From the IMG/VR virus record IMGVR_UViG_3300018080_000604, positions 1-23,423 of that record: a stretch of 23,423 nucleotides of DNA; one strand, given 5' to 3'. The translations under genes and the position numbers were made by a program. Numbering within the stretch: the first letter of the stretch is position 1; every line of letters starts with the position of its first letter. Of this stretch, positions 1-23,321 are shown in pieces. This DNA comes from a virus. Under the pieces are notes generated by a model. That model ran no database searches and had not been told where the DNA came from. It was given only the letters and a program-made list of their open reading frames with translations.

Positions 1-93
1 ACGCAAAGCGGCGTTTTCTTTTGGGGGGCTGGTTTTAGTTGGTATTTCGACAGGAATATAAAAAACTATGAGCAGAAAAATAAAACTAACTAA
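1..93 (+). CDS. 3' end of an upstream gene, possibly a small membrane protein (partial)
   Basis: The first bases read as an open frame without a start, ending at TAA 91-93. The 30 visible residues have a hydrophobic, aromatic stretch (GVFFWGAGFSWYF) followed by a charged tail (DRNIKNYEQKNKTN), which looks like the end of a membrane helix and its flanking cytoplasmic tail. It would overlap the next gene by 26 bases, in keeping with the tight packing elsewhere. A second frame is also open from the window edge, ends at 61, and would give a hydrophobic C-terminus (FGGLVLVGISTGI), so the frame choice is uncertain. A phage holin or other lysis protein is conceivable but cannot be shown from 30 residues. 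Confidence 0.3.
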   Translation, partial: TQSGVFFWGAGFSWYFDRNIKNYEQKNKTN

Positions 94-604
94 AGAGATA
101 AAACATAAGGCGGTAAAGTTTGCAAAACTCAAATTAAAAGACACTTACAATAGATTTGGTTTTGATGATAAAAAACGCCTTAACCAAATTATTATTGGCA
201 ATATTGGGGAATTTGCTTTTGAGAAGGTACTAATTGAACAGGGGTTTAATTATGAGTTTGATTTTTACCAGGAAGGAAGGACGAAAGATAATTTTGATTT
301 TTGCATACATGGCGGGCTAACTATAGAGGTTAAAACTAGTGCTTTTTATAATCAATACGGCTTTTCTAAACTTAATCTTTTATATTCTCAGGATCAGTAC
401 CAAGCAGGATTAAAAAAAGGTTTTGATTATTGCGCTGTTTTGATGATCGAAGGCAAAACCAAACAGGGGTTTAATATTGATTTATGTAATTTTGCCTTTG
501 TTGCCGGCTATATCAAGTATAAAAATATTGCTAAATACAAACAGGAAGCCCGTTTTTTTGGGGATAATTATAAGGTACCTTTAAATCAATTGATAAATAG
601 GTAA
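68..604 (+). CDS. PD-(D/E)XK nuclease-like protein
   Basis: This 178-residue protein has the arrangement of a PD-(D/E)XK nuclease core. There is a helix with Glu48 (GNIGEFAFEKVL), then Asp77 in NFDFCIHGG, then the E87-V88-K89 strand (TIEVKTSAF), followed by helices and an aromatic-rich C-terminus. It has no recognition domain, so it resembles short restriction-like or Holliday-junction/repair nucleases of phages more than a complete restriction enzyme. It starts at ATG 68 and is one of only two genes on the plus strand. Its TAA (602-604) abuts the TAA of the convergent phosphoesterase gene with no base between. A strong terminator follows 32 bases downstream. The fold assignment is by motif; substrate and role (recombination, host DNA degradation, packaging repair) are unknown. 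Confidence 0.55.
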   Translation: MSRKIKLTKEIKHKAVKFAKLKLKDTYNRFGFDDKKRLNQIIIGNIGEFAFEKVLIEQGFNYEFDFYQEGRTKDNFDFCIHGGLTIEVKTSAFYNQYGFSKLNLLYSQDQYQAGLKKGFDYCAVLMIEGKTKQGFNIDLCNFAFVAGYIKYKNIAKYKQEARFFGDNYKVPLNQLINR

Positions 605-1837
605 TTAAAAAGAATATTCAACACTTTCAAACATAGAACCGCAGGAACTTACGTTGTAAAGTTCTGCGGTTTTTTGTACACCTATATAGCCGCTGGCATC
701 ATGCCACGCATCAGAAGCACAAACAGCCCGTAAAAACTTAGCCTTCACCCCTATAAAGTCCTGACCTCTTAAAAATTGATACTCTTTTTGGTGGTGAATA
801 TCTCCAAAGAAAGCATACCTAAACGAAGTAGCCGCCCATTCTTTAGGCTTTTCCTGCGCTATAATTTCGGGAATGTGCCCCACTTTAGACTTCATTTTGT
901 CGCCGTGCGAAAACATGAATAAATTATTACAATATTGTATGTATTTTCGTTTCCTTCTTGAATAGTCTATTTTTACCCTGTTGCTTTCTTTGTAAATAGT
1001 ACCAAGCACAACCCCCAATAAATGTATTAAGTCTTGGTCATGGTTGCCCGCTATCATCAGAACACGAACAGGGGCCAATTTAGCGGCCTTGTCAATAAGC
1101 TCCCTAATTAGATTTAAAACAATTTCAAATGTATCTATGTGGTTTAAGTATGTTTCCTGTGGGGTGCCCTTTTTGGTGGTGCTTCGAGCATCATTAATAT
1201 TAAAAAGGTCGTTACCTATGGGAAGTATAATTAACTCGGGTTTATTAGTCTTACTAAGTAGCTTATTAAAAGTGGATCTAAACAGGGTACAATTTTTGTC
1301 TATATCTGAACTTTGCCCCGTTTCCGTGTATCTGGTGACCTTATCTAAGTGAGCATCGTACAAATTTATTATAGAGCAGTGCCCCGCCTTTGTTCGCTGC
1401 CCGCCTTTATTGTCAAAATTTGGGGCCTTATAGGCATATAGACCGCTTTCTAATCTATTAGCTAGCCTTTCTATTGAACTTTCTTTTTTAAGGGCTAAAT
1501 TTGCCTTTACAGAAAACAATTGTTTAAGCCCTTCCGCTTTGCTGTTCTGTTGCCATGTAGAAACCCTAAAAGAACTAACTTCCCAAATATTAGTATCAAT
1601 TTTACACGCCTTTATTAGTTGTTCTTTAGTCCTTATCTCGGTTCCTTCTTTCTCAATAGTCCAACTATCCCCTGTTAATTCTTCTTTTGTCGTTTCTGTT
1701 GTTTCTTCTCCCTTAAGTATACTTAAAAGCTTTTCAGGCCCTTTTTCTTTTGCAAGTTTGATAATATTAACCCAAACGTCTTTTGAGCCTTCGAGTCCGG
1801 GCCTGTAGGAATAGGCTTTTGTTTGCTTCTTTCCCAT
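605..1837 (-). CDS. Mre11/SbcD-like calcineurin-type metallophosphoesterase
   Basis: The C-terminal two thirds of this 410-residue protein carries the full set of metallophosphoesterase motifs in order: D161-A-H163 (INLYDAHLD), G208-N209-D210, G264-N-H-D267, H311 in MFSHGD, and G345-D-I-H-H349. These bind the two metals used for phosphoester or DNA-end hydrolysis in Mre11/SbcD relatives. About 150 N-terminal residues are not part of that domain; residues 65-110 (TKEQLIKACKIDTNIWEV and following) could be a small helix-turn-helix, which is a guess. The start is ATG 1837, since no other Met occurs before residue 261. It is the last gene of the minus-strand operon, and its first 115 bases overlap the 79-codon frame upstream. 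No SbcC/Rad50-like ATPase lies in the window. A DNA repair or DNA-end processing role is inferred from the family. Confidence 0.8.
   Translation of the reverse strand: MGKKQTKAYSYRPGLEGSKDVWVNIIKLAKEKGPEKLLSILKGEETTETTKEELTGDSWTIEKEGTEIRTKEQLIKACKIDTNIWEVSSFRVSTWQQNSKAEGLKQLFSVKANLALKKESSIERLANRLESGLYAYKAPNFDNKGGQRTKAGHCSIINLYDAHLDKVTRYTETGQSSDIDKNCTLFRSTFNKLLSKTNKPELIILPIGNDLFNINDARSTTKKGTPQETYLNHIDTFEIVLNLIRELIDKAAKLAPVRVLMIAGNHDQDLIHLLGVVLGTIYKESNRVKIDYSRRKRKYIQYCNNLFMFSHGDKMKSKVGHIPEIIAQEKPKEWAATSFRYAFFGDIHHQKEYQFLRGQDFIGVKAKFLRAVCASDAWHDASGYIGVQKTAELYNVSSCGSMFESVEYSF
637..675 (+). terminator. Rho-independent terminator of the plus-strand unit, antisense inside the phosphoesterase gene
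   Basis: The left arm AACCGCAGGAACTT (637-650) pairs with AAGTTCTGCGGTT (659-671), giving 13 pairs with one bulged G (645) and an 8-base loop. T670-T675 follows. The T-run lies on the plus-strand side only; on the minus strand the stem is followed by CTATG, so it should not stop late transcription. It lies 32 bases after the nuclease stop and within codons near the 3' end of the convergent phosphoesterase gene. Confidence 0.8.
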
Positions 1838-1962
1838 GTTAAATAGATTTTATTATCTGTTTGGGGTGCAATAGGTAGATTAAAAACAAAATCTAACCTA
1901 TAAACACATATAAATAAAGCTAGTATAGATATTTGTTGAAGTTTGGTTTTTAGTTCTTTCAT
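1723..1962 (-). CDS. Small putative membrane protein overlapping the phosphoesterase gene
   Basis: This is a 79-codon frame whose ATG (1962-1960) overlaps the upstream stop TGA (1961-1959) as ATGA, a typical translational coupling. The N-terminus is a short basic segment then a hydrophobic stretch (ISILALFICVYRL), so it may be a membrane anchor or export signal. There is no clear lipobox despite the Cys. The last 38 codons are read in another frame over the start of the phosphoesterase gene, an unusually long overlap of 115 bases. Position after a two-helix membrane protein with a coiled coil suggests a lysis or spanin-like partner, but the sequence does not prove this. It may also be a non-coding frame. 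Confidence 0.45.
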   Translation of the reverse strand: MKELKTKLQQISILALFICVYRLDFVFNLPIAPQTDNKIYLTWERSKQKPIPTGPDSKAQKTFGLILSNLQKKKGLKSF

Positions 1963-2327
1963 CGTTGGTTACCCCCTGAATCTATTATTTTATTAATTTT
2001 AGTAGTATTGTTATCTATTAGTTTTCTATTTGTTCTTATATCGTTTTTGTTTTCTCTGAGTTCCTGCCTGTTGGCTGTTGTTTCGTTTCTGCGTTCTTCA
2101 TTCTCTGAAATAATAAAGGAATATAGTTTTAGATTTTGGGTCCAATATTCATGCAGCCGCACTAATGAGCCGGCGGTAGTAGATAATACTAAAACATACC
2201 AAGAAACTAAAAAAACCGAATCTTTAGTATCTACTATTATAATTTCAGGTAGGCGAATAAACACCACCAGCAAAACACAAACCACTGTTAAAATACTAAT
2301 ACATAATATAATATTATTTGTCTTCAT
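1959..2327 (-). CDS. Two-helix membrane protein with coiled-coil tail (holin/spanin-like candidate)
   Basis: This 122-residue protein has two hydrophobic helices, about residues 6-24 (IILCISILTVVCVLLVVF) and 37-55, joined by a short acidic turn. A long polar, charged helix follows (about 72-116: ENEERRNETTANRQEL and onward) with Leu/Ile spaced as in a coiled coil. The layout suits a class II-type holin or an inner-membrane spanin-like subunit: two passes, then a soluble oligomerising tail. It follows the patatin gene by 39 bases and is coupled by ATGA to the next small membrane frame. No sequence family was recognised, and the lysis role is inferred from topology and position only. An accessory envelope protein unrelated to lysis is also possible. 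Confidence 0.65.
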   Translation of the reverse strand: MKTNNIILCISILTVVCVLLVVFIRLPEIIIVDTKDSVFLVSWYVLVLSTTAGSLVRLHEYWTQNLKLYSFIISENEERRNETTANRQELRENKNDIRTNRKLIDNNTTKINKIIDSGGNQR

Positions 2328-2366
2328 TCATTTTTATAAGTTGTTGGGCACTGTTATAAATCGGGG

Positions 2367-3227
2367 TTAAATTTCTTTTATTGCATCCTTAGCACTTTGT
2401 ATTAGTTTTAGCTTTTCTTTATTTCCGTATTGGTATACGTTGTTTAACCTATGCTTATTGTATATCCCTGTTCGCTTTGTACCACGTTCTAAGCAGGTTT
2501 TTAGTTCTTTATATTCATCGTTTAGGCTTGTTTCATGGTTGTAAACCTCTAAAACCCTATTAAGCGTATTAAATAAATTAGGCTTCTTGGGTTGCCATAG
2601 TTTCAACTTCCAATCCTTTGGGCGTGACCAAATAGAAACTAAATGTTTTATATTGTCGTGTTTTTCAAACAAAATACTACTAGGGTTGTGCTCTTTGTTG
2701 CCACCATCCCAATAGTAACAGCCGCCAATTTTAACCGGCTGCGTGTTTCCTGGTATTCGTGCGCTTGCTTCAGCTAACAAAAGGGCCGTTTCTAAGTCGT
2801 AATGTTTTAAATTAAAACTTTCGTGCTTTCCTGTTGTTGCATTAACTGCACCACAATAAACAGGGGGCGAATATACGTTCGTTCTGTAGTCCTTCCACTG
2901 CTTAGGGCTTATTATTTCGCGCATGATTGGCCGCGCGTCCTGCTGCATTAGATAACCTTTGCTAATAGCATTAAACCAACCACCTATTTTAATTCTGCCC
3001 TTTTTAGATACTTGTATCTTTTTATAAGCCTTAGAAGGATCTATTTGTTTAGCTATTTCAAGCAGCTTTTCAGGACCTAAAACAGCATGTATAATAGAAA
3101 CGTAAAGCCCGGAACTAACACCGCTAAAAGCATCATATCTAATACCTAATTTTAAGGCACTTAAGGCACTTGCCACACCTAAAAAAAGAATGTGAGCACC
3201 GCCGCCGCTGTTGCTGTTAACTACCAT
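2367..3227 (-). CDS. Patatin-like phospholipase
   Basis: This 286-residue protein has the patatin signature: a Gly-rich oxyanion-hole segment near the N-terminus (SNSGGGAHILFLGVASAL, residues 5-22), the nucleophile elbow G36-V-S38-S-G40 in AFSGVSSGLY, and the D174-G-G motif in YYWDGGNKEHNP that completes the Ser-Asp dyad. Family members hydrolyse acyl chains from membrane phospholipids. There is no signal peptide. The C-terminal 90 residues are Lys-rich and not obviously catalytic. It starts seven bases inside the end of the upstream 95-codon gene and precedes the two-helix membrane protein. Position after the tail-fibre region suggests a role in lysis, in entry as a virion enzyme, or in altering the host envelope; which one is inference. 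The fold and catalytic residues are well supported. Confidence 0.82.
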   Translation of the reverse strand: MVVNSNSGGGAHILFLGVASALSALKLGIRYDAFSGVSSGLYVSIIHAVLGPEKLLEIAKQIDPSKAYKKIQVSKKGRIKIGGWFNAISKGYLMQQDARPIMREIISPKQWKDYRTNVYSPPVYCGAVNATTGKHESFNLKHYDLETALLLAEASARIPGNTQPVKIGGCYYWDGGNKEHNPSSILFEKHDNIKHLVSIWSRPKDWKLKLWQPKKPNLFNTLNRVLEVYNHETSLNDEYKELKTCLERGTKRTGIYNKHRLNNVYQYGNKEKLKLIQSAKDAIKEI

Positions 3228-3508
3228 CCTAACAAAGTTTCCAAGCTGTTTAATAAATCTAAATTAGTTAAAAAAGTTGTAGTGTTCCCAACTTTTGAAA
3301 CTAACTCTTTTGCTAAATTCACTTTAACCCCATCAATAAAAATAATATTTATCCCATCGCTTTCGTTTTCTTCTAAAACCATTCTTAAAACACTAGTTAA
3401 AGGCTGTTTTATTATTCGATAATCAACGGAAGGGCTGTTTACTAGGTCTTTAGGGTCTAATATAAACCCCTTTCCGTTTGGTGTTAGTGTTATTTCAAAG
3501 CCTATCAT
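3221..3508 (-). CDS. Small hypothetical protein between fibre and patatin genes
   Basis: This 95-residue mixed alpha/beta protein is not recognised. It has an N-terminal strand-like segment (GFEITLTPNGKGFIL), a central helix with acidic residues (SVLRMVLEENESDG), a strand pair with a turn (INIIFIDGVKV) and a leucine-rich C-terminal helix. The start is ATG 3508, three bases after the putative receptor-binding gene, and its stop overlaps the patatin start by seven bases, so it is translated within the same operon. Small genes just after fibre genes often encode fibre chaperones or tip subunits, but nothing in the sequence singles that out. Confidence 0.65.
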   Translation of the reverse strand: MIGFEITLTPNGKGFILDPKDLVNSPSVDYRIIKQPLTSVLRMVLEENESDGINIIFIDGVKVNLAKELVSKVGNTTTFLTNLDLLNSLETLLGW

Positions 3509-3511
3509 TTG

Positions 3512-4714
3512 TTATAGTGTTTTAAAGTTAATACCACCCCTTAAATCTAAATTAGCTCCTACGGGTTGGGCGCAATATGCTAAAACGTCAAAGGTCCCCG
3601 ATAGGCTTGTACCGGGTTGAAATAAACTATTTGCTTCTAATTCGCCGCCTCTGGTCCTGTCTGATATGAAACCCGTGTTTAATATGGTGCCGCCTGTTAC
3701 TGTTGTAGGGCTTGGGTTACCTGCTGCCCCTATTGCGTAATCAAAGCCGCTATTTGTTAAGGCGTTCCAAGTTGGGGCGGTTGCAAAAGTTGGGTTTAAT
3801 ATAAATCTAGTAATAAAAGGGTCGTTAGTAGTACCTAAAGCGGCCCCTAAAAACCCAAACCCGACCGCGCTAGGGTCATTTAGTCGAATAGCTGCAATTA
3901 AATATGTATTACTTATACTATTCGCATTTATAAAGCTGCTGCCTGTATCAACTGCACGGGGGAACCCTACAACATCAATAGCCCCGCCTGTTGTGACTGT
4001 TGCGCAAATTTGCCCCATGGAACCCGCGCCGCCTGTGCTCCTAACTTCCCAACGAACAGGCAAAACAGGCGACCCCACAAAGGTGGTCGCATTTATAGAA
4101 CTGTTTTGTATAGTATGGGCATGATAAAAAACGCCGCCAATATTAAATAACAACCTTAAAGCCGTGCCACCGAGATATAAATAATCTAGTGCCATGACTG
4201 TAAAATTGTTAAAGTTTATATTTAAACCACTTGGGCCGTTACCGTCTAAGCTATCCCCTGTCCAAGATGATTGCGGAACGCTTGCAATAGTAGAACCATT
4301 TTTTTGAATAACTAAACTAATTACGCCGCTTGAACTTTCTAAATAGAAACCATCTAAATTGGTACTATAGGGGGCAGTTGTTGAAGAAGAAAACAGCCCA
4401 ACCCTTTTTATTATGTCTGTTTGTGGTGCAAAATTGTTAAATGTCATTTCTAGTGTTTGGGCCTTCCCTGCTAAATATAAATGCCTTTTAAATGATTGAC
4501 AAACAGTATATTGGCCCGCCGTTACTGACATATTAACAACGCCGCTGCTATATGTTTGGGTTCCTGTCCCCTGTCTGTCTAGTAATAGGGGTAAATTATC
4601 CTTGTCTTGTACGTAATTACCCAAAACAGCTTTTTGAGAAACCGGCAAAGCGCCCCCGGCATCTAAGGCGCTGCTATTGAATGTTAATTCATCATTAGGA
4701 ACAGTAAAAGACAT
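3512..4714 (-). CDS. Putative receptor-binding / tail-fibre or capsid-fibre protein
   Basis: This 400-residue, Ser/Thr/Gly/Asn-rich protein has almost no Lys/Glu helices and is dominated by predicted beta strands. Residues 60-130 contain a segment typical of phage adhesin-like beta-sandwich proteins: TAGQYTVCQSFKRHLYLAGKA, then the theme VGLFSSSTTAPYSTNLDGFYLES. I recognise this pattern from aquatic-phage fibre or receptor-binding proteins, without a search. The C-terminal half holds further repeats of aromatic and Gly-rich strands. It is followed by a small gene and preceded by head and connector genes, the usual place for late host-recognition genes. The exact virion location (tail tip, side fibre or capsid fibre) is unresolved. 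Confidence 0.6.
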   Translation of the reverse strand: MSFTVPNDELTFNSSALDAGGALPVSQKAVLGNYVQDKDNLPLLLDRQGTGTQTYSSGVVNMSVTAGQYTVCQSFKRHLYLAGKAQTLEMTFNNFAPQTDIIKRVGLFSSSTTAPYSTNLDGFYLESSSGVISLVIQKNGSTIASVPQSSWTGDSLDGNGPSGLNINFNNFTVMALDYLYLGGTALRLLFNIGGVFYHAHTIQNSSINATTFVGSPVLPVRWEVRSTGGAGSMGQICATVTTGGAIDVVGFPRAVDTGSSFINANSISNTYLIAAIRLNDPSAVGFGFLGAALGTTNDPFITRFILNPTFATAPTWNALTNSGFDYAIGAAGNPSPTTVTGGTILNTGFISDRTRGGELEANSLFQPGTSLSGTFDVLAYCAQPVGANLDLRGGINFKTL

Positions 4715-9941: not shown

Positions 9942-10367
9942 TTATTTTAAATTTTTTTCAATCAAGGCCGCCAAAGGGTCCTTTTTTGTGTTTGGCTGCT
10001 TTCCTGTTGGGCGTTCGCCGCTAGGTTGGGCCAAAGTTGCTTTAAGTGTGTTAAGCTCGTTTTTAATACTTGTAAAAGCGTCTTTAAGCTCGTTTAAAGC
10101 GTCTTGTTTTGGTTCTTCTTTCTGTTCGGGTGCTTTTTCTTGCTCCTGTTCCTTATTTACGATATAGCCCTTATTTTTAAGGTGCTCAATCATTTCATTT
10201 TCAGTCATTTCTAAATCAGTTTTTTGCTGTTCTTCTGTTGTTGGTTGTGGTTCCTCTATTTGCTCAACTGTTGGGGCTTCGTTTTTAGCACCAAAAAGGC
10301 CACTAAAAGCATTTAGTATTTTTTCCAAAGTTGATATAGAAACCTTCTCTTCTTTATTGTCGTCCAT
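9942..10367 (-). CDS. Possible internally started scaffold protein (nested in the protease gene)
   Basis: Met325 of the protease fusion (ATG 10367-10365) begins exactly where the scaffold-like segment starts, with MDDNKEEKVSISTLEKIL. An A/T-rich leader precedes it (TATTTTATAATATAG), the type of context that marks starts in this DNA. A product of 141 residues from here would be a free scaffold, as Nu3 is made within the protease gene C of phage lambda. Whether this start is used cannot be told from sequence. Confidence 0.3.
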   Translation of the reverse strand: MDDNKEEKVSISTLEKILNAFSGLFGAKNEAPTVEQIEEPQPTTEEQQKTDLEMTENEMIEHLKNKGYIVNKEQEQEKAPEQKEEPKQDALNELKDAFTSIKNELNTLKATLAQPSGERPTGKQPNTKKDPLAALIEKNLK

Positions 10368-11339
10368 TGGATCTATATTATAAAATAGTTTTAAAGTGTC
10401 TGGTATATTTTTATAATTGCTTAGGGTGTTTTTGAACTTATTAGTTATTGGCTGTGTTTCGGGCTGTTCTTTCTCTTTTTCTTCCTCACCATAGCCGCCA
10501 CTTATTACACTGTCTGCCAATCCTAATTCAACCGCTTGTTTTGCATTTAGCCATGTTTCAGCATTGACAAGCCTTTGAAAATAGGCGGCTGTTTTTTGGC
10601 GGTCTTGGTCTATTAATTTTCCTCTTTTTTCTGCTGCATCCGTGTAGGCTTCTACTATTTCCTTTTCCATTGTCTTAAGCGTTCGCCCTTGCTGCTTTAG
10701 TTGCTCTGCTGTCATTGGCTCAGCATTCCATAATGCTACATTGTGAACCATTACAAAAGCCCCCTTTTGTATTTCTACACGGTCCGCACCTGTAAGGATT
10801 AAGGACGCAATAGAAGCCGCTAAACCGATTACTTTTATAGTAGTTTCGCCGTTATAATTTTGTATTGCGTTACGTATTGCAAAGCCCTCTAAAACAGAAC
10901 CGCCGCCACTATGTAGATTAATTTTAACAGGTTGGCCGCCTGCTTGCTTTAGTTGGTTTTCGACTAGGTTATAATCTACACCATAAAAACCTTCTATATC
11001 CCCGATAATGTCTAATTCAAACATATTTTGTTTTTCTTCGTCTATTTGTTGGCTTTTTCTTATAGCCCATTCTATCCCCTCAGTGCCGCCCCAAGCGTCC
11101 CACATTAAACCGCCGCACCCTTCAGAATAGGGAACGTCTTTATTTTGTCGGTGCCTGTTAAAGCTCGCCATTCTTTTAATAGTTTCCTCGCTTATTGGCT
11201 CCCTGTTGGCTAATTGGTTAGCCCGTGCCCATCCAACAGCCGTACCGCACCCGTTTTGGTTGTTCGTTTCATCCCTAAACTTTAGGGCCTTCTTTGCGTT
11301 GTCGCTTGCTGCTTTTGGGTAATCGGTATAACTCGCCAT
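9942..11339 (-). CDS. Prohead protease (ClpP/S14-like) fused to N-terminal phage module and C-terminal scaffold
   Basis: This 465-residue protein has three parts. Residues 1-100 are a phage-associated module (DYPKAASDNAKKALKF; GWARANQLANREPISEETIKR; GLMWDAWGGTEG) often seen next to head-maturation functions. Residues 107-280 are a ClpP-like serine protease: INLHSGGGSVLEG, nucleophile Ser176 in GLAASIASL, catalytic His199 in FVMVHNV, and ETWLNAKQAVELGLADSV. The canonical third residue (Asp) is not obvious. Residues 325-465 are Glu/Lys/Gln-rich with a helix (ALNELKDAFTSIKNELNTLK) and a basic end, as in scaffolds. It likely cleaves scaffold and capsid during maturation. It is the first gene after the internal terminator and probably heads the head-gene transcript. 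Confidence 0.85.
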   Translation of the reverse strand: MASYTDYPKAASDNAKKALKFRDETNNQNGCGTAVGWARANQLANREPISEETIKRMASFNRHRQNKDVPYSEGCGGLMWDAWGGTEGIEWAIRKSQQIDEEKQNMFELDIIGDIEGFYGVDYNLVENQLKQAGGQPVKINLHSGGGSVLEGFAIRNAIQNYNGETTIKVIGLAASIASLILTGADRVEIQKGAFVMVHNVALWNAEPMTAEQLKQQGRTLKTMEKEIVEAYTDAAEKRGKLIDQDRQKTAAYFQRLVNAETWLNAKQAVELGLADSVISGGYGEEEKEKEQPETQPITNKFKNTLSNYKNIPDTLKLFYNIDPMDDNKEEKVSISTLEKILNAFSGLFGAKNEAPTVEQIEEPQPTTEEQQKTDLEMTENEMIEHLKNKGYIVNKEQEQEKAPEQKEEPKQDALNELKDAFTSIKNELNTLKATLAQPSGERPTGKQPNTKKDPLAALIEKNLK

Positions 11340-19375: not shown

Positions 19376-20647
19376 TTATGGGGTGTCTGTTGTTCTGTCT
19401 ACTTCTTCCATGTTTACCGATATAGTTGTATTATCGTTTTTGCTTTCATCCGGAACATTCCAAACGCCGCCAATATATTGGGCTTTTTCGCCCTGTCTAT
19501 TCCAATAGGCTAAATTAAACTGCTTACTGTGCTGCCTTAAGTCGGTCGGCTTCCCACCGTTGTATGTTTCTGCTACTTCCTGAGCATCAAAACCAATATT
19601 AAAAAGCCCTATTTCGTTTAAATGCCCTCTATAATAACCGCCATTAGCCCACCCCTGTTTTCCTATTACTAACGGCCTGTTATAGTTATTCATTCCTGTA
19701 TAGGTGCCTAAACTTAAGTCTGTTAGTGTCATTTCTGCGCCGTTTAGGTAGGCTTTTATTCCTGCAAATGTTTTACTACCATCGTAAGTATATAAAATAT
19801 GGTTCCACGCCCCAAAATTAACCTGCTCAGTACTAAGTGCGCTCAGGTAATTATTATTAAATATACCGCTATATAGTGTTAATCTTGTTTCCCCCGTATC
19901 AAATAAAACTAATTGATATTCGTCTAAACCTACAAACACGCTTGCGCCCCTTTTATTTATAAGCCATTGACTAGCTCCTGTATTAAGTGGTTTTATCCAC
20001 ATCGAAAAAGTTAGGCCGGTATCTGTCACACCATCCCCAAAACTTAATGTATTATTATCTGGTGCTTCTTGGTATTCGTCCACACCATCATAAAGGTAAC
20101 TAAACGTATCTTTAAAACATTCAACCCGTTCGTTATCTGTATTATTTACGCTTGTAAGGTCTATATCTATGCACTCAGTATTAAAAGGCGTTACTAAATT
20201 GAATGTCAATTCATAAGTCACTAACCTATCATTAAAGGCGTAAGCATCTAAATTAAAAGCCGCTTCCTGTTTTCTTAGTGAGCTTTGTAAACACGCCCCT
20301 TCTGTTTTGATACTGTAAAGCGAACGCATAAAAGAAAGGGCCAATAGTTCTAAATCGCTCATTTTTTCTAAAAGCGTTTCACATATAGCCCCGTTTTTGT
20401 CGCTGTCTTGTCGATCTGCAAACAAAAGCCTAACAGTTCTAAATATTTTGCTGTCGTGTGTCCTGTAAGAACCTGCAGGCGGTTCAAACATTACTAAGGG
20501 GTAAGGGTCTGAACATTTAGGGGAAGGGTTGAAATTATTAATTATACTAGTGTTAATATCACTAAGAAACCCAAAATGATAAGAATTTAAACCCGCTATG
20601 TTTTGAGTAATAGCGTTAAATATATTGCTTAACTCTGTTAGTGTCAT
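19376..20647 (-). CDS. Tail terminator-like protein fused to a LamG (concanavalin-like) domain
   Basis: In this 423-residue protein, residues 1-165 resemble a phage tail terminator/minor structural protein: an N-terminal helix (LTELSNIFNAITQNIAGL), PYPLVMFEPPAGSYR, the strand KIFRTVRLLFADRQD, a helix (CETLLEKMSDLELLALSFMR) and the strand RLVTYELTFNLVTPFN. Residues 185-385 form a LamG-like beta-sandwich: YLYDGVDEYQEAPDNNTLSF, LTFSMWIKPL, LINKRG, WNHILYTYDGSK, KAYLNGAEM, and YRGHLNEIGLFNIGFDAQEV. LamG domains bind glycans or proteins. A lectin fused to a protein of the head-tail junction is unusual and could make an adhesin on the neck or collar. Start ATG 20647 overlaps the previous stop as TAATG. 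Confidence 0.7.
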   Translation of the reverse strand: MTLTELSNIFNAITQNIAGLNSYHFGFLSDINTSIINNFNPSPKCSDPYPLVMFEPPAGSYRTHDSKIFRTVRLLFADRQDSDKNGAICETLLEKMSDLELLALSFMRSLYSIKTEGACLQSSLRKQEAAFNLDAYAFNDRLVTYELTFNLVTPFNTECIDIDLTSVNNTDNERVECFKDTFSYLYDGVDEYQEAPDNNTLSFGDGVTDTGLTFSMWIKPLNTGASQWLINKRGASVFVGLDEYQLVLFDTGETRLTLYSGIFNNNYLSALSTEQVNFGAWNHILYTYDGSKTFAGIKAYLNGAEMTLTDLSLGTYTGMNNYNRPLVIGKQGWANGGYYRGHLNEIGLFNIGFDAQEVAETYNGGKPTDLRQHSKQFNLAYWNRQGEKAQYIGGVWNVPDESKNDNTTISVNMEEVDRTTDTP

Positions 20648-21727: not shown

Positions 21728-22972
21728 TTAGCGTCTTTTTCTTTTTGCTGCTATTACGCCGCTTTTGTTGGTCAGATAGCTAAAAGCATAACGCCCCGCG
21801 TCTATTGCATGATTGTAAGCGTCTATAGGTATTCCTGCTTTCCTATCATTCCAAATATAATTATTAAATTCTGTTTTTATATTGGTGCTTTGTGGTGTTA
21901 TTATATGTGTATAGTCCTGCATAGATGTTAAACCAGCACTAACAGAACCGGGACCCTTTTTACATGGTCTTATATTTAGGCCCATTTTTGAAAGGTCTTT
22001 TATTAACCTTCCTTCTGCGCTGTCTGCTATTATTAAATCATTCTTAGCCCTTAAACGGCTTTTATTCAGTTCGTATATTTCAGCAGTGCCTAAACTATCA
22101 GTTGTATATATTTCTTCATGCCAATACATCTTTTTAGCTTTCTTATCTACTGCTATTTTTATTAGGGTCGTTGGATCAATACTAAAACCGTAATCCTGAC
22201 CAAGACAATAGGGTAAAGAGTTATTAAACTCGCCTTCCTGCCAATTGTCAAAAATAACCCCTTCCGCCTTATCGAGCCACGCCCCTATATATTTGTGTTG
22301 GTACTTTTTAGGGTTTTCTTTCCTTACCTGCTCCCACTGTTGCACCTTTTTAGCGTCTAGGTTCGTTATATTTATGTGGTACGTTGTGTGTATGTGTTCA
22401 ACTTCCTTATGTGTACTTTGTTGATATGTAAAGCCATGTAAACTTTTTATAGTATGGCTTTTAGCAAAGAACTTTTTATAAATAAAGTGCTCTTTAGTTG
22501 TTGGGTTCTGTATCCATATAATACGGTTTTGTATGCCTTTGGTCCTTATACTATCGTCTATGTCAATAAAACTCTGTTCTTTATTGTAGTCTTCCCCTTC
22601 TTCAATAACCCATGTCGTTATGTTTGGTAACGTTTTTAAATTCCCTGTTTGGTCCCCTGAACTTGTCTTAATACCTGAAAACATAATACTACTACCTGTC
22701 ACATTGTTTGTTATTAGCTTTTTAGTAATAGTGTACTTTTTAGGATCAGATATTAACTCTATATGTTTTGCGAATAGGGGAATTATTGTTTTTTCCACGC
22801 TGGTCATGGTGTAACGTGTATATAAAATACTTTGCCCTACCTGTTCCAGTAACCTTATCAGGAAATCCTGAACCGCAAACGTTTTACCAGAACCGCGCCC
22901 CCCTGTAAGTATAAAGTAACGCTTTTTTGATGTATAGAGGGGTTTATATATGCTATTTATTTTTATCATCAT
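21728..22972 (-). CDS. terL: Terminase large subunit
   Basis: This 414-residue ATPase-nuclease pumps and cuts phage DNA at the portal. Walker A is G24-GRGSGKT31 (YFILTGGRGSGKTFAVQ). Walker B is WVIEEGED (residues 121-128) with Glu124/Glu125. The C-terminal RNase H-like nuclease has Asp260 (LGQDYGFSIDPTTLIKI), Asp317 (LIIADSAEG) and Asp391 (NHAIDAGRYAF), with KKGPGSVSAG between. The pattern is that of the Terminase_3/Terminase_3C families. Length is normal and the gene looks intact. Two ATGs stand in tandem at the start (22972 and 22969); the frame overlaps the small subunit by 20 bases. The C-terminus is basic (AAKRKRR). Confidence 0.95.
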   Translation of the reverse strand: MMIKINSIYKPLYTSKKRYFILTGGRGSGKTFAVQDFLIRLLEQVGQSILYTRYTMTSVEKTIIPLFAKHIELISDPKKYTITKKLITNNVTGSSIMFSGIKTSSGDQTGNLKTLPNITTWVIEEGEDYNKEQSFIDIDDSIRTKGIQNRIIWIQNPTTKEHFIYKKFFAKSHTIKSLHGFTYQQSTHKEVEHIHTTYHINITNLDAKKVQQWEQVRKENPKKYQHKYIGAWLDKAEGVIFDNWQEGEFNNSLPYCLGQDYGFSIDPTTLIKIAVDKKAKKMYWHEEIYTTDSLGTAEIYELNKSRLRAKNDLIIADSAEGRLIKDLSKMGLNIRPCKKGPGSVSAGLTSMQDYTHIITPQSTNIKTEFNNYIWNDRKAGIPIDAYNHAIDAGRYAFSYLTNKSGVIAAKRKRR

Positions 22973-23321
22973 CGACCCACGTTATTGGGTTTATACTTTG
23001 TATTTTATCCCCTTTTGTGGTATGGTCTATATTTTGTTTGTTTAGCTTTTCAAGTTCTTCAGGTGTTGCACAAAGTTTGTAAAGTGCTATTTCTGTAGTG
23101 GCGTTTCCTGCTTCGTACCATTTATCACGTAAACCGCCCTTCATACTTATTTTGTTTTCCTCTATAGCCTTTTTAATGCTTTCTAGTTTTTCCAACTCTT
23201 TATTATAAAAAGTAGCTGAAGAACACGGTAAAAAGTGCACAACTTCCTGAATAAATATAAGTTTGTGCTTCTGTATTGCCTTGATTGCTAGCTTTTCAAG
23301 TTCCTCATTGTCGTATGCCAT
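22953..23321 (-). CDS. terS: Terminase small subunit
   Basis: This 122-residue DNA-binding partner of the large terminase recognises the packaging site. The first 40 residues form a helix-turn-helix-like segment (HKLIFIQEVVHFLPCSSATF), followed by KKAIEENKISMKGGLRDKWY and NATTEIALYKLCATPEELEK, a pattern I know from small terminases of Bacteroidetes phages. The C-terminus is polar and probably flexible. It is the first gene of the late operon, starts at ATG 23321, and its end overlaps the large subunit by 20 bases. Position and pattern agree well. Confidence 0.8.
   Translation of the reverse strand: MAYDNEELEKLAIKAIQKHKLIFIQEVVHFLPCSSATFYNKELEKLESIKKAIEENKISMKGGLRDKWYEAGNATTEIALYKLCATPEELEKLNKQNIDHTTKGDKIQSINPITWVDDDKNK

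Follow-up and report, generated by a model that had tools for sequence, protein, structure and literature searches.

The window analysed here, a stretch of 23,423 bases, is the whole of IMG/VR virus record IMGVR_UViG_3300018080_000604, which is classed as linear and is probably an incomplete piece of a phage genome. Towards the end of its late operon it encodes a 286-residue patatin-like lipase. Comparison of the gene order with that of related phages indicates that an exonuclease gene close downstream marks a lysis slot, and that the patatin in this slot replaces the endolysin of the relatives. A preliminary description of the stretch had proposed that the patatin and its neighbours could form a lipid-attacking lysis or envelope-disruption module. 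Our analysis strengthens this proposal, short of proof, and we consider the chances about evenly balanced that the patatin is a lipid-attacking lysis enzyme standing in the endolysin's place.

Patatin in the lysis slot

The survey of the slot was anchored on the exonuclease gene. It covered five loci in viral contigs, namely the sister phage IMGVR_UViG_3300025093_000053 (G001), L022, L014 (also numbered L023), L024 and L025, and the isolates snusmum6-1 (L017) and Rctr41k (L018). Among 28 Flavobacterium records with an exonuclease match, one (snusmum6-1) was read whole, together with the first 2 kb of a second. A wall hydrolase was encoded at most four genes upstream of the exonuclease in 5 of the 6 other orthologue-bearing phages examined (Amidase_2 in three, SLT in one and GH25 in one), and the patatin sits in that slot in both the window and G001. 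The hydrolase cassettes of L014, L022, L024, L025 and snusmum6-1 occupy the same place as the patatin, between the structural genes and the exonuclease, but hold a wall hydrolase where the window and G001 have the patatin.

Upstream of its exonuclease, L014 encodes a 64-residue protein, an Amidase_2 protein (E = 1.3e-4, 22.7 bits, just below the cut-off of 26), a 68-residue membrane protein, and a protein with a lipoprotein-like start and a C-terminal membrane segment, which we take to be spanin-like. The arrangement in L022 is the same, with an Amidase_2 match again just under the cut-off (3.9e-5, 24.4 bits). The slot of L024 contains a 75-residue membrane protein, a 69-residue protein, an SLT protein (1e-25, over the cut-off), proteins of 176 and 81 residues, and one of 87 residues. 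That of L025 contains a GH25 protein (3.8e-18) and proteins of 121 and 169 residues; the exonuclease of L025 is cut by the contig end and gives a weak match (E = 9e-6). In snusmum6-1, where the slot was joined across the record ends, a PF05105 holin accompanies an Amidase_2 protein (2.4e-16). No lipoprotein with a C-terminal membrane segment was found in the slot of the window, and G001, unlike L014 and L022, also lacks one. Both L014 and L022 share the portal (27-30% identity) and the exonuclease with the window, and L014 also shares the major capsid protein (MCP), which points to the same kind of late operon with different lysis genes. Nonlabens phage P12024L, with a similar order of endolysin, holin and metallophosphatase, was not counted because its phosphatase, at 19% identity, is no orthologue.

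Profile searches gave a matching distribution. PF01734 was present in G001 and absent from all seven other, more distant records. Amidase_2 (PF01510) had matches in L014, L022 and snusmum6-1 but none in the window or G001. Among five records searched for SLT (PF01464), only that of L024 gave a match, the window and G001 giving none.

The 286-residue protein matches PF01734 with E = 5.8e-11 (43.4 bits, against a Pfam cut-off of 27.7), and Ser38 in GVSSG and Asp174 in DGG are invariant in all four phage copies (the window, G001 and two jumbo phages). A structure model built from these four sequences (pLDDT 80.5, pTM 0.83) has the patatin fold, with 9kh6_A, VIA, as its best PDB match (Z 21.3, root mean square deviation 3.7, 262 residues aligned). 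It was followed by AbCapV (Z 19.4, 4.1, 269 aligned), CapE (Z 19.3, 3.7, 255 aligned), PlpD (Z 18.7, 3.6, 232 aligned) and Patatin-17 (Z 18.4, 4.2, 264 aligned). Structure matches within 1 Z of each other were counted as tied, and since these last four were tied, no patatin subfamily could be assigned from the fold search. The protein is thus a patatin-fold lipase as judged by family, modelled fold and active-site residues, its lipase activity being predicted from these. The earlier identification of a patatin-like phospholipase with an intact Ser38-Asp174 dyad therefore stands, and a fold devoid of a patatin active site, which would have told against it, was not what the model returned. The first beta strand of the model lies at residues 2-7, with no N-terminal extension; the absence of an extension implies that there is no signal peptide and that the patatin would start out in the cytosol.

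G001 (37,957 bases) is the one close relative found, and its patatin is 75% identical. Both of its ends fall in what looks like a single early gene (N-terminal part at L004:3-308, Phg_2220_C part at L005:792-1556), which suggests that the record is probably an almost complete circular genome opened within a repeat; no exact overlap of the ends was found. The gene order is that of the window, with proteins of 400 and 95 residues, the patatin, proteins of 123 and 79 residues, and the exonuclease, so that the four genes grouped in the preliminary description recur together. Between the two phages the ratio of nonsynonymous to synonymous divergence (dN/dS) is 0.09 for the patatin (proportion of nonsynonymous differences, pN, 0.16; of synonymous differences, pS, 0.70), 0.11 for the 122-residue protein, 0.48 for the 79-residue protein, 0.07 for the exonuclease, and 0.05 for both the MCP and the terminase (TerL). 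These values are rough, dS being near saturation for three of the four cassette genes. They indicate purifying selection on the patatin as strong as that on core genes, and the preservation of the same order under such selection argues that the four-gene arrangement is not due to chance. The patatin is therefore no scattered passenger within the two close members, where it has the same place and the same neighbours. Together with its absence from the seven more distant records, this identifies it, at the level of gene content, as a lineage-specific swap.

The window carries a single late operon on the minus strand, running from the terminase through the portal, head protease and phrog_1645 virion protein to the exonuclease, and the four genes were found where the preliminary description had placed them, closing this operon. 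The patatin gene lies on the same strand as the terminase, portal and capsid genes, and its 7-bp overlap with the gene of the preceding 95-residue protein indicates translational coupling. A Bacteroidota-type promoter pattern had one match in the window, compared with 2.27 expected, and none ahead of the patatin. Strand, overlap and lack of a promoter match suggest that the patatin is not an independently transcribed passenger. The host is likely a member of the Bacteroidota, because the terminase is closest to those of Riemerella phages (49.5% identity) and a DUF6712 protein (Pfam) is encoded in the window.

A possible lytic role and its alternatives

Tailed phages are described as lysing Gram-negative hosts by means of a holin, an endolysin and a spanin. 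We hypothesize that the patatin, encoded in the lysis slot of the late operon, would be produced late and in the cytoplasm, and that the 122-residue membrane protein, acting as a holin, would time the opening of the inner membrane. The lipase would then hydrolyse envelope phospholipids of the inner membrane and, once released, of the outer membrane, and both lipid barriers would give way. Cutting of the wall would fall either to an unrecognised second enzyme, for which the 187-residue protein of G001 is a candidate, or to host autolysins after membrane damage. The patatin may serve to breach the inner membrane, to breach the outer membrane as a spanin would, or to bring about lysis as a whole. 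A lysis role provides the best fit to late cytosolic synthesis, an adjoining membrane protein, position in the lysis slot and strong conservation.

The 122-residue protein has hydrophobic segments at residues 6-24 and 38-56 and a charged C-terminal tail. The two helices of the preliminary description are thus found in the window, whereas only the first segment of the 123-residue counterpart in G001 passes the same threshold, and the coiled coil in the tail was judged by eye. No match was obtained above the Pfam cut-off, in PHROG, or among phages by tblastn at E up to 1; the protein is holin-like by architecture and a candidate holin. The 79-residue open reading frame (ORF) has a hydrophobic segment at 11-29 and one Cys in common with its counterpart in G001. 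Its ATGA coupling to the upstream gene, pointed out earlier, is present in the window but gives way to a 2-bp gap in G001. Its last 115 bp lie inside the exonuclease gene (window 1723-1837, minus strand), an overlap kept in G001 at L002:11403-11517. In the exonuclease frame pS is 0.48 inside the overlap and 0.89 over the 38 codons that follow; such a drop is expected where two frames are both translated, and true dual coding is likely.

The phosphoesterase matches phrog_704, 'DNA repair exonuclease' (E = 2.2e-53), in agreement with its earlier description as Mre11-like. We rejected it as a part of the functional lysis cassette, since in the relatives the genes ahead of it are ordinary lysis genes for an amidase, SLT or GH25 enzyme. 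It is probably an anchor gene of the next module, just downstream of the slot. The proposed lysis module gains independent positional support for its patatin and loses its fourth member.

Several points weigh against a lytic role. The usual motif of the patatin oxyanion loop is GGGx[KR]G, and the loop reads GGGSKG in the seven chromosomal relatives shown, SGGGAHI in the window and GGGAYI in G001; it keeps GGG and loses both the K/R and the last G, which would speak against ordinary activity. A lipase alone cannot cut peptidoglycan, and the model therefore needs another enzyme or the autolysins of the host. No match at the sequence level marks the 122-residue protein as a holin. Only two phages, the window and G001, carry the arrangement; one of the six other orthologue-bearing phages, Rctr41k, has no annotated lysis gene beside the exonuclease, and the distantly related patatins of jumbo phages are encoded outside a lysis slot. 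Nor does position establish function, since a slot can also be taken over by late genes of other kinds.

The alternative that survives best, though we consider it unlikely, is ordinary lysis from elsewhere in the genome: a divergent operon in the sister phage would encode a true endolysin, the 187-residue protein, and the patatin would have an accessory part, such as replacing a spanin, or no part in lysis. The left end of the window breaks inside the gene of a 106-residue protein, and in G001 the convergent operon runs on to this protein and the 187-residue protein, which thus lies just beyond the window's left end and has an N-terminal hydrophobic anchor. It is the only candidate wall enzyme in the sister phage, but it had no match in Pfam, PHROG or the PDB. 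SLT and destabilase profiles gave no match in G001, and an SLT profile built here ranked the protein below 11 other ORFs, with an hhalign probability of 0.6% compared with 100% for the positive control. An AlphaFold2 model made without an alignment reached a pLDDT of 44. Searches for relatives returned only the protein itself among viral contigs and none in 395 Bacteroidota genomes, where an empty result is weakly informative. An assignment as lysozyme or transglycosylase from motifs read by eye was not upheld by any profile, database or structure test and was dropped. Also dropped was a 70-residue ORF of the window that matched the SLT profile with E = 0.0096 over a short, chance-like alignment.

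Pfam scans, which passed over small ORFs and a few overlapping ones, revealed no peptidoglycan hydrolase family among the window ORFs (TerL was assigned by PHROGs) or among 22 further ORFs of G001, whose 123- and 79-residue proteins were scanned as well. The earlier statement that no classical endolysin is visible holds for the ORFs scanned in the window, itself a fragment. As for a normal endolysin-holin-spanin set elsewhere in the phage, the scanned ORFs of G001 contain no wall hydrolase family, and the membrane-anchored 187-residue protein remains as a candidate.

Somewhat less probable is a role in entry, in which a lipase on the particle would open the outer or inner membrane for the passage of DNA. 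The patatin directly follows the structural genes, the last of which encodes the phrog_1645 protein, and is coupled to the gene of the 95-residue protein. The jumbo-phage copy in LR756500 follows tail-fibre-like genes, and for phage WO both entry and exit were left open by Kent et al. in the portion of the article available (PMC3173496). However, the gene comes after the structural genes and occupies the slot in which the relatives have their lysis enzymes, and the protein is not fused to a structural domain.

The preliminary description had also pointed to CapV-type effectors of anti-phage defence. As a conflict protein the patatin would kill or stall the cell on attack by a rival phage, or counter host defence, in the manner of CBASS patatin effectors. 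It shares the patatin fold with AbCapV and CapE, but PlpD and Patatin-17 match equally, so that the likeness is one of fold only. PADLOC gave no match for any of six proteins tested, no CD-NTase-type Pfam match that could indicate a partner nucleotide cyclase was found among the ORFs scanned, and the gene is coupled into the late operon rather than forming a separate transcription unit. We regard this role as quite improbable. Least probable of all is remodelling of host lipids by an auxiliary metabolic gene that would free fatty acids or alter membranes during infection: patatin genes seen in lake viruses have been catalogued as potential metabolic genes (PMC9469726) and the closest full-length cellular matches are chromosomal Bacteroidota patatins of about 300 residues, from which the gene may be derived, but its late position in the lysis slot and its low identity to the chromosomal copies (14-19%) argue otherwise.

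Origin of the patatin and other features

The profile of the four phage patatins matched 113 of 395 Bacteroidota genomes. A set of full-length matches, with E values down to 2e-30, is to a chromosomal gene with a housekeeping-like context and the GGGSKG loop, differing in both from the phage copy. In 22 of the 31 loci clustered it lies beside a conserved gene (cluster c1), which by eye appears to encode an aminopeptidase. Identity to seven chromosomal copies is 14-19% for the window patatin and 22-27% for the jumbo-phage patatins. Most simply, the phage patatin would be an old capture of a cellular patatin. The exonuclease matched 2 of the 395 genomes (loci L122 and L123). Apart from patatin, exonuclease and a leucine-rich protein, no resemblance to this phage was seen in any of the 33 neighbourhoods fetched (31 of patatin, 2 of exonuclease).

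In viral contigs, the only patatin copies found besides that of G001 were two in jumbo phages. Both belong to uncultured phages: that of LR756500 (462 kb) lies at L006:5989-6882, and that of LR756504 (636 kb) at L007:5983-6894, alone between genes of the opposite strand.

Table 1. Positions of the features discussed, in the window and in the sister phage G001
Feature	Position	Strand	Basis or remark
Terminase (TerL)	21728-23321	-	PHROGs
Portal	late operon	-	PF04860
Head protease	9942-11339	-	PF00574, phrog_94
400-residue virion structural protein	3512-4714	-	phrog_1645, E = 1e-39; last recognisable structural gene ahead of the slot
95-residue protein, function not assigned	3221-3508	-	overlaps the patatin start by 7 bp
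Patatin-like lipase, 286 residues	2367-3227	-	PF01734, dyad, fold
122-residue membrane protein	1959-2327	-	hydrophobic segments, charged C-terminal tail
79-residue ORF	1723-1962	-	one hydrophobic segment; last 115 bp inside the exonuclease gene
Exonuclease (Mre11-like phosphoesterase), 410 residues	605-1837	-	phrog_704
178-residue protein	68-604	+	end of the convergent operon
187-residue membrane-anchored protein, G001	L002:14401-14964	-	N-terminal hydrophobic anchor 12-30
106-residue secreted-looking protein, G001	L002:14084-14404	-	overlaps the 187-residue gene by 4 bp; no known family

Synonymous divergence of the 95-residue gene from G001 is unusually low (pS 0.41, compared with about 0.7 for most neighbours), owing perhaps to recombination or to a signal embedded in the gene. 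In its first ~98 residues the head protease has 62-65% identity to separate proteins at L014:4891-5454 and L022:2793-3377; from the alignments, this domain is fused to the ClpP-like protease in the window and free-standing in the other two. A tail-terminator-like protein (19376-20647, minus strand; phrog_347, E = 0.0012) has a C-terminal Laminin_G_3 or concanavalin-like lectin domain (PF13385, E = 3.2e-15) that is probably displayed on the tail to bind carbohydrate. The MCP had no relatives in searches of phages and of genome contigs. The 178-residue protein gave only weak PHROG matches, to proteins without an assigned function; its GE...IEVKTS stretch resembles PD-(D/E)XK nucleases. The early region of G001 encodes two neighbouring leucine-rich-repeat proteins with similar N-termini (L004:776-1676, minus strand; PF12799, E = 1.1e-17 for the longer one).

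Comparison with known systems

As far as the available portions of the sources go, lipid-attacking enzymes in phage lysis are established only for mycobacteriophage LysB (PMC5707550, PMC8309991, PMC6116114). LysB is likewise a lipolytic enzyme of a phage lysis cassette that attacks an outer lipid barrier, but it is a mycolyl-arabinogalactan esterase, stands beside an endolysin, and is proven by experiment; the two are likened by description only.

The preliminary description had not recognised the cassette as a known unit. A parallel is published, in that a putative patatin-based lytic cassette has been described in Wolbachia phage WO, related phages having a GH108 lysozyme in that place (PMC9203015); the patatin there is of another subfamily. 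As in the window, the patatin of phage WO adjoins a small protein with an N-terminal membrane segment and a charged tail or coiled coil, beside structural genes and with no recognisable endolysin in the portion of the article available (PMC9203015). The differences are considerable. The WO patatin (HQ906662) has 14% identity to that of the window and a VDGGGIRG loop, which suggests that the two recruitments were independent. The small proteins have no detectable similarity (the tblastn collection included the WO record), no ankyrin protein was found here, and WO has sheath and baseplate genes (HQ906662) of an unrelated tail type. Wolbachia is reported, in the same portion of the article, to have no detected peptidoglycan (PMC9203015), whereas a free-living host is expected here. 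Patatins are among the expressed WO proteins, and their place is not settled in the part of that source available (PMC4701759).

In the open-access literature searched, no patatin lysis cassette was found outside phage WO. The fullest form of our proposal is that a tailed phage of a walled, free-living Gram-negative host dispenses with a conventional endolysin and spanin and lyses by a timed membrane protein and a phospholipase. Lipid hydrolysis would be the main lytic step, while host autolysins or a new membrane-tethered enzyme would deal with the wall. Patatins would then have been recruited to lysis twice independently, here and in phage WO; we hold this form of the proposal to be doubtful. 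If true, it would provide a further explanation for phage genomes that seemingly lack an endolysin. The host of phage WO cannot be grown freely. Here, a lipase in the endolysin's place, together with relatives bearing an amidase, SLT or GH25 enzyme, would make phospholipid hydrolysis as a lysis mechanism testable by simple co-expression. A patatin lytic cassette had already been proposed for phage WO; what the present comparison adds is a lysis slot, marked by the exonuclease, in which the patatin appears to replace a wall hydrolase.

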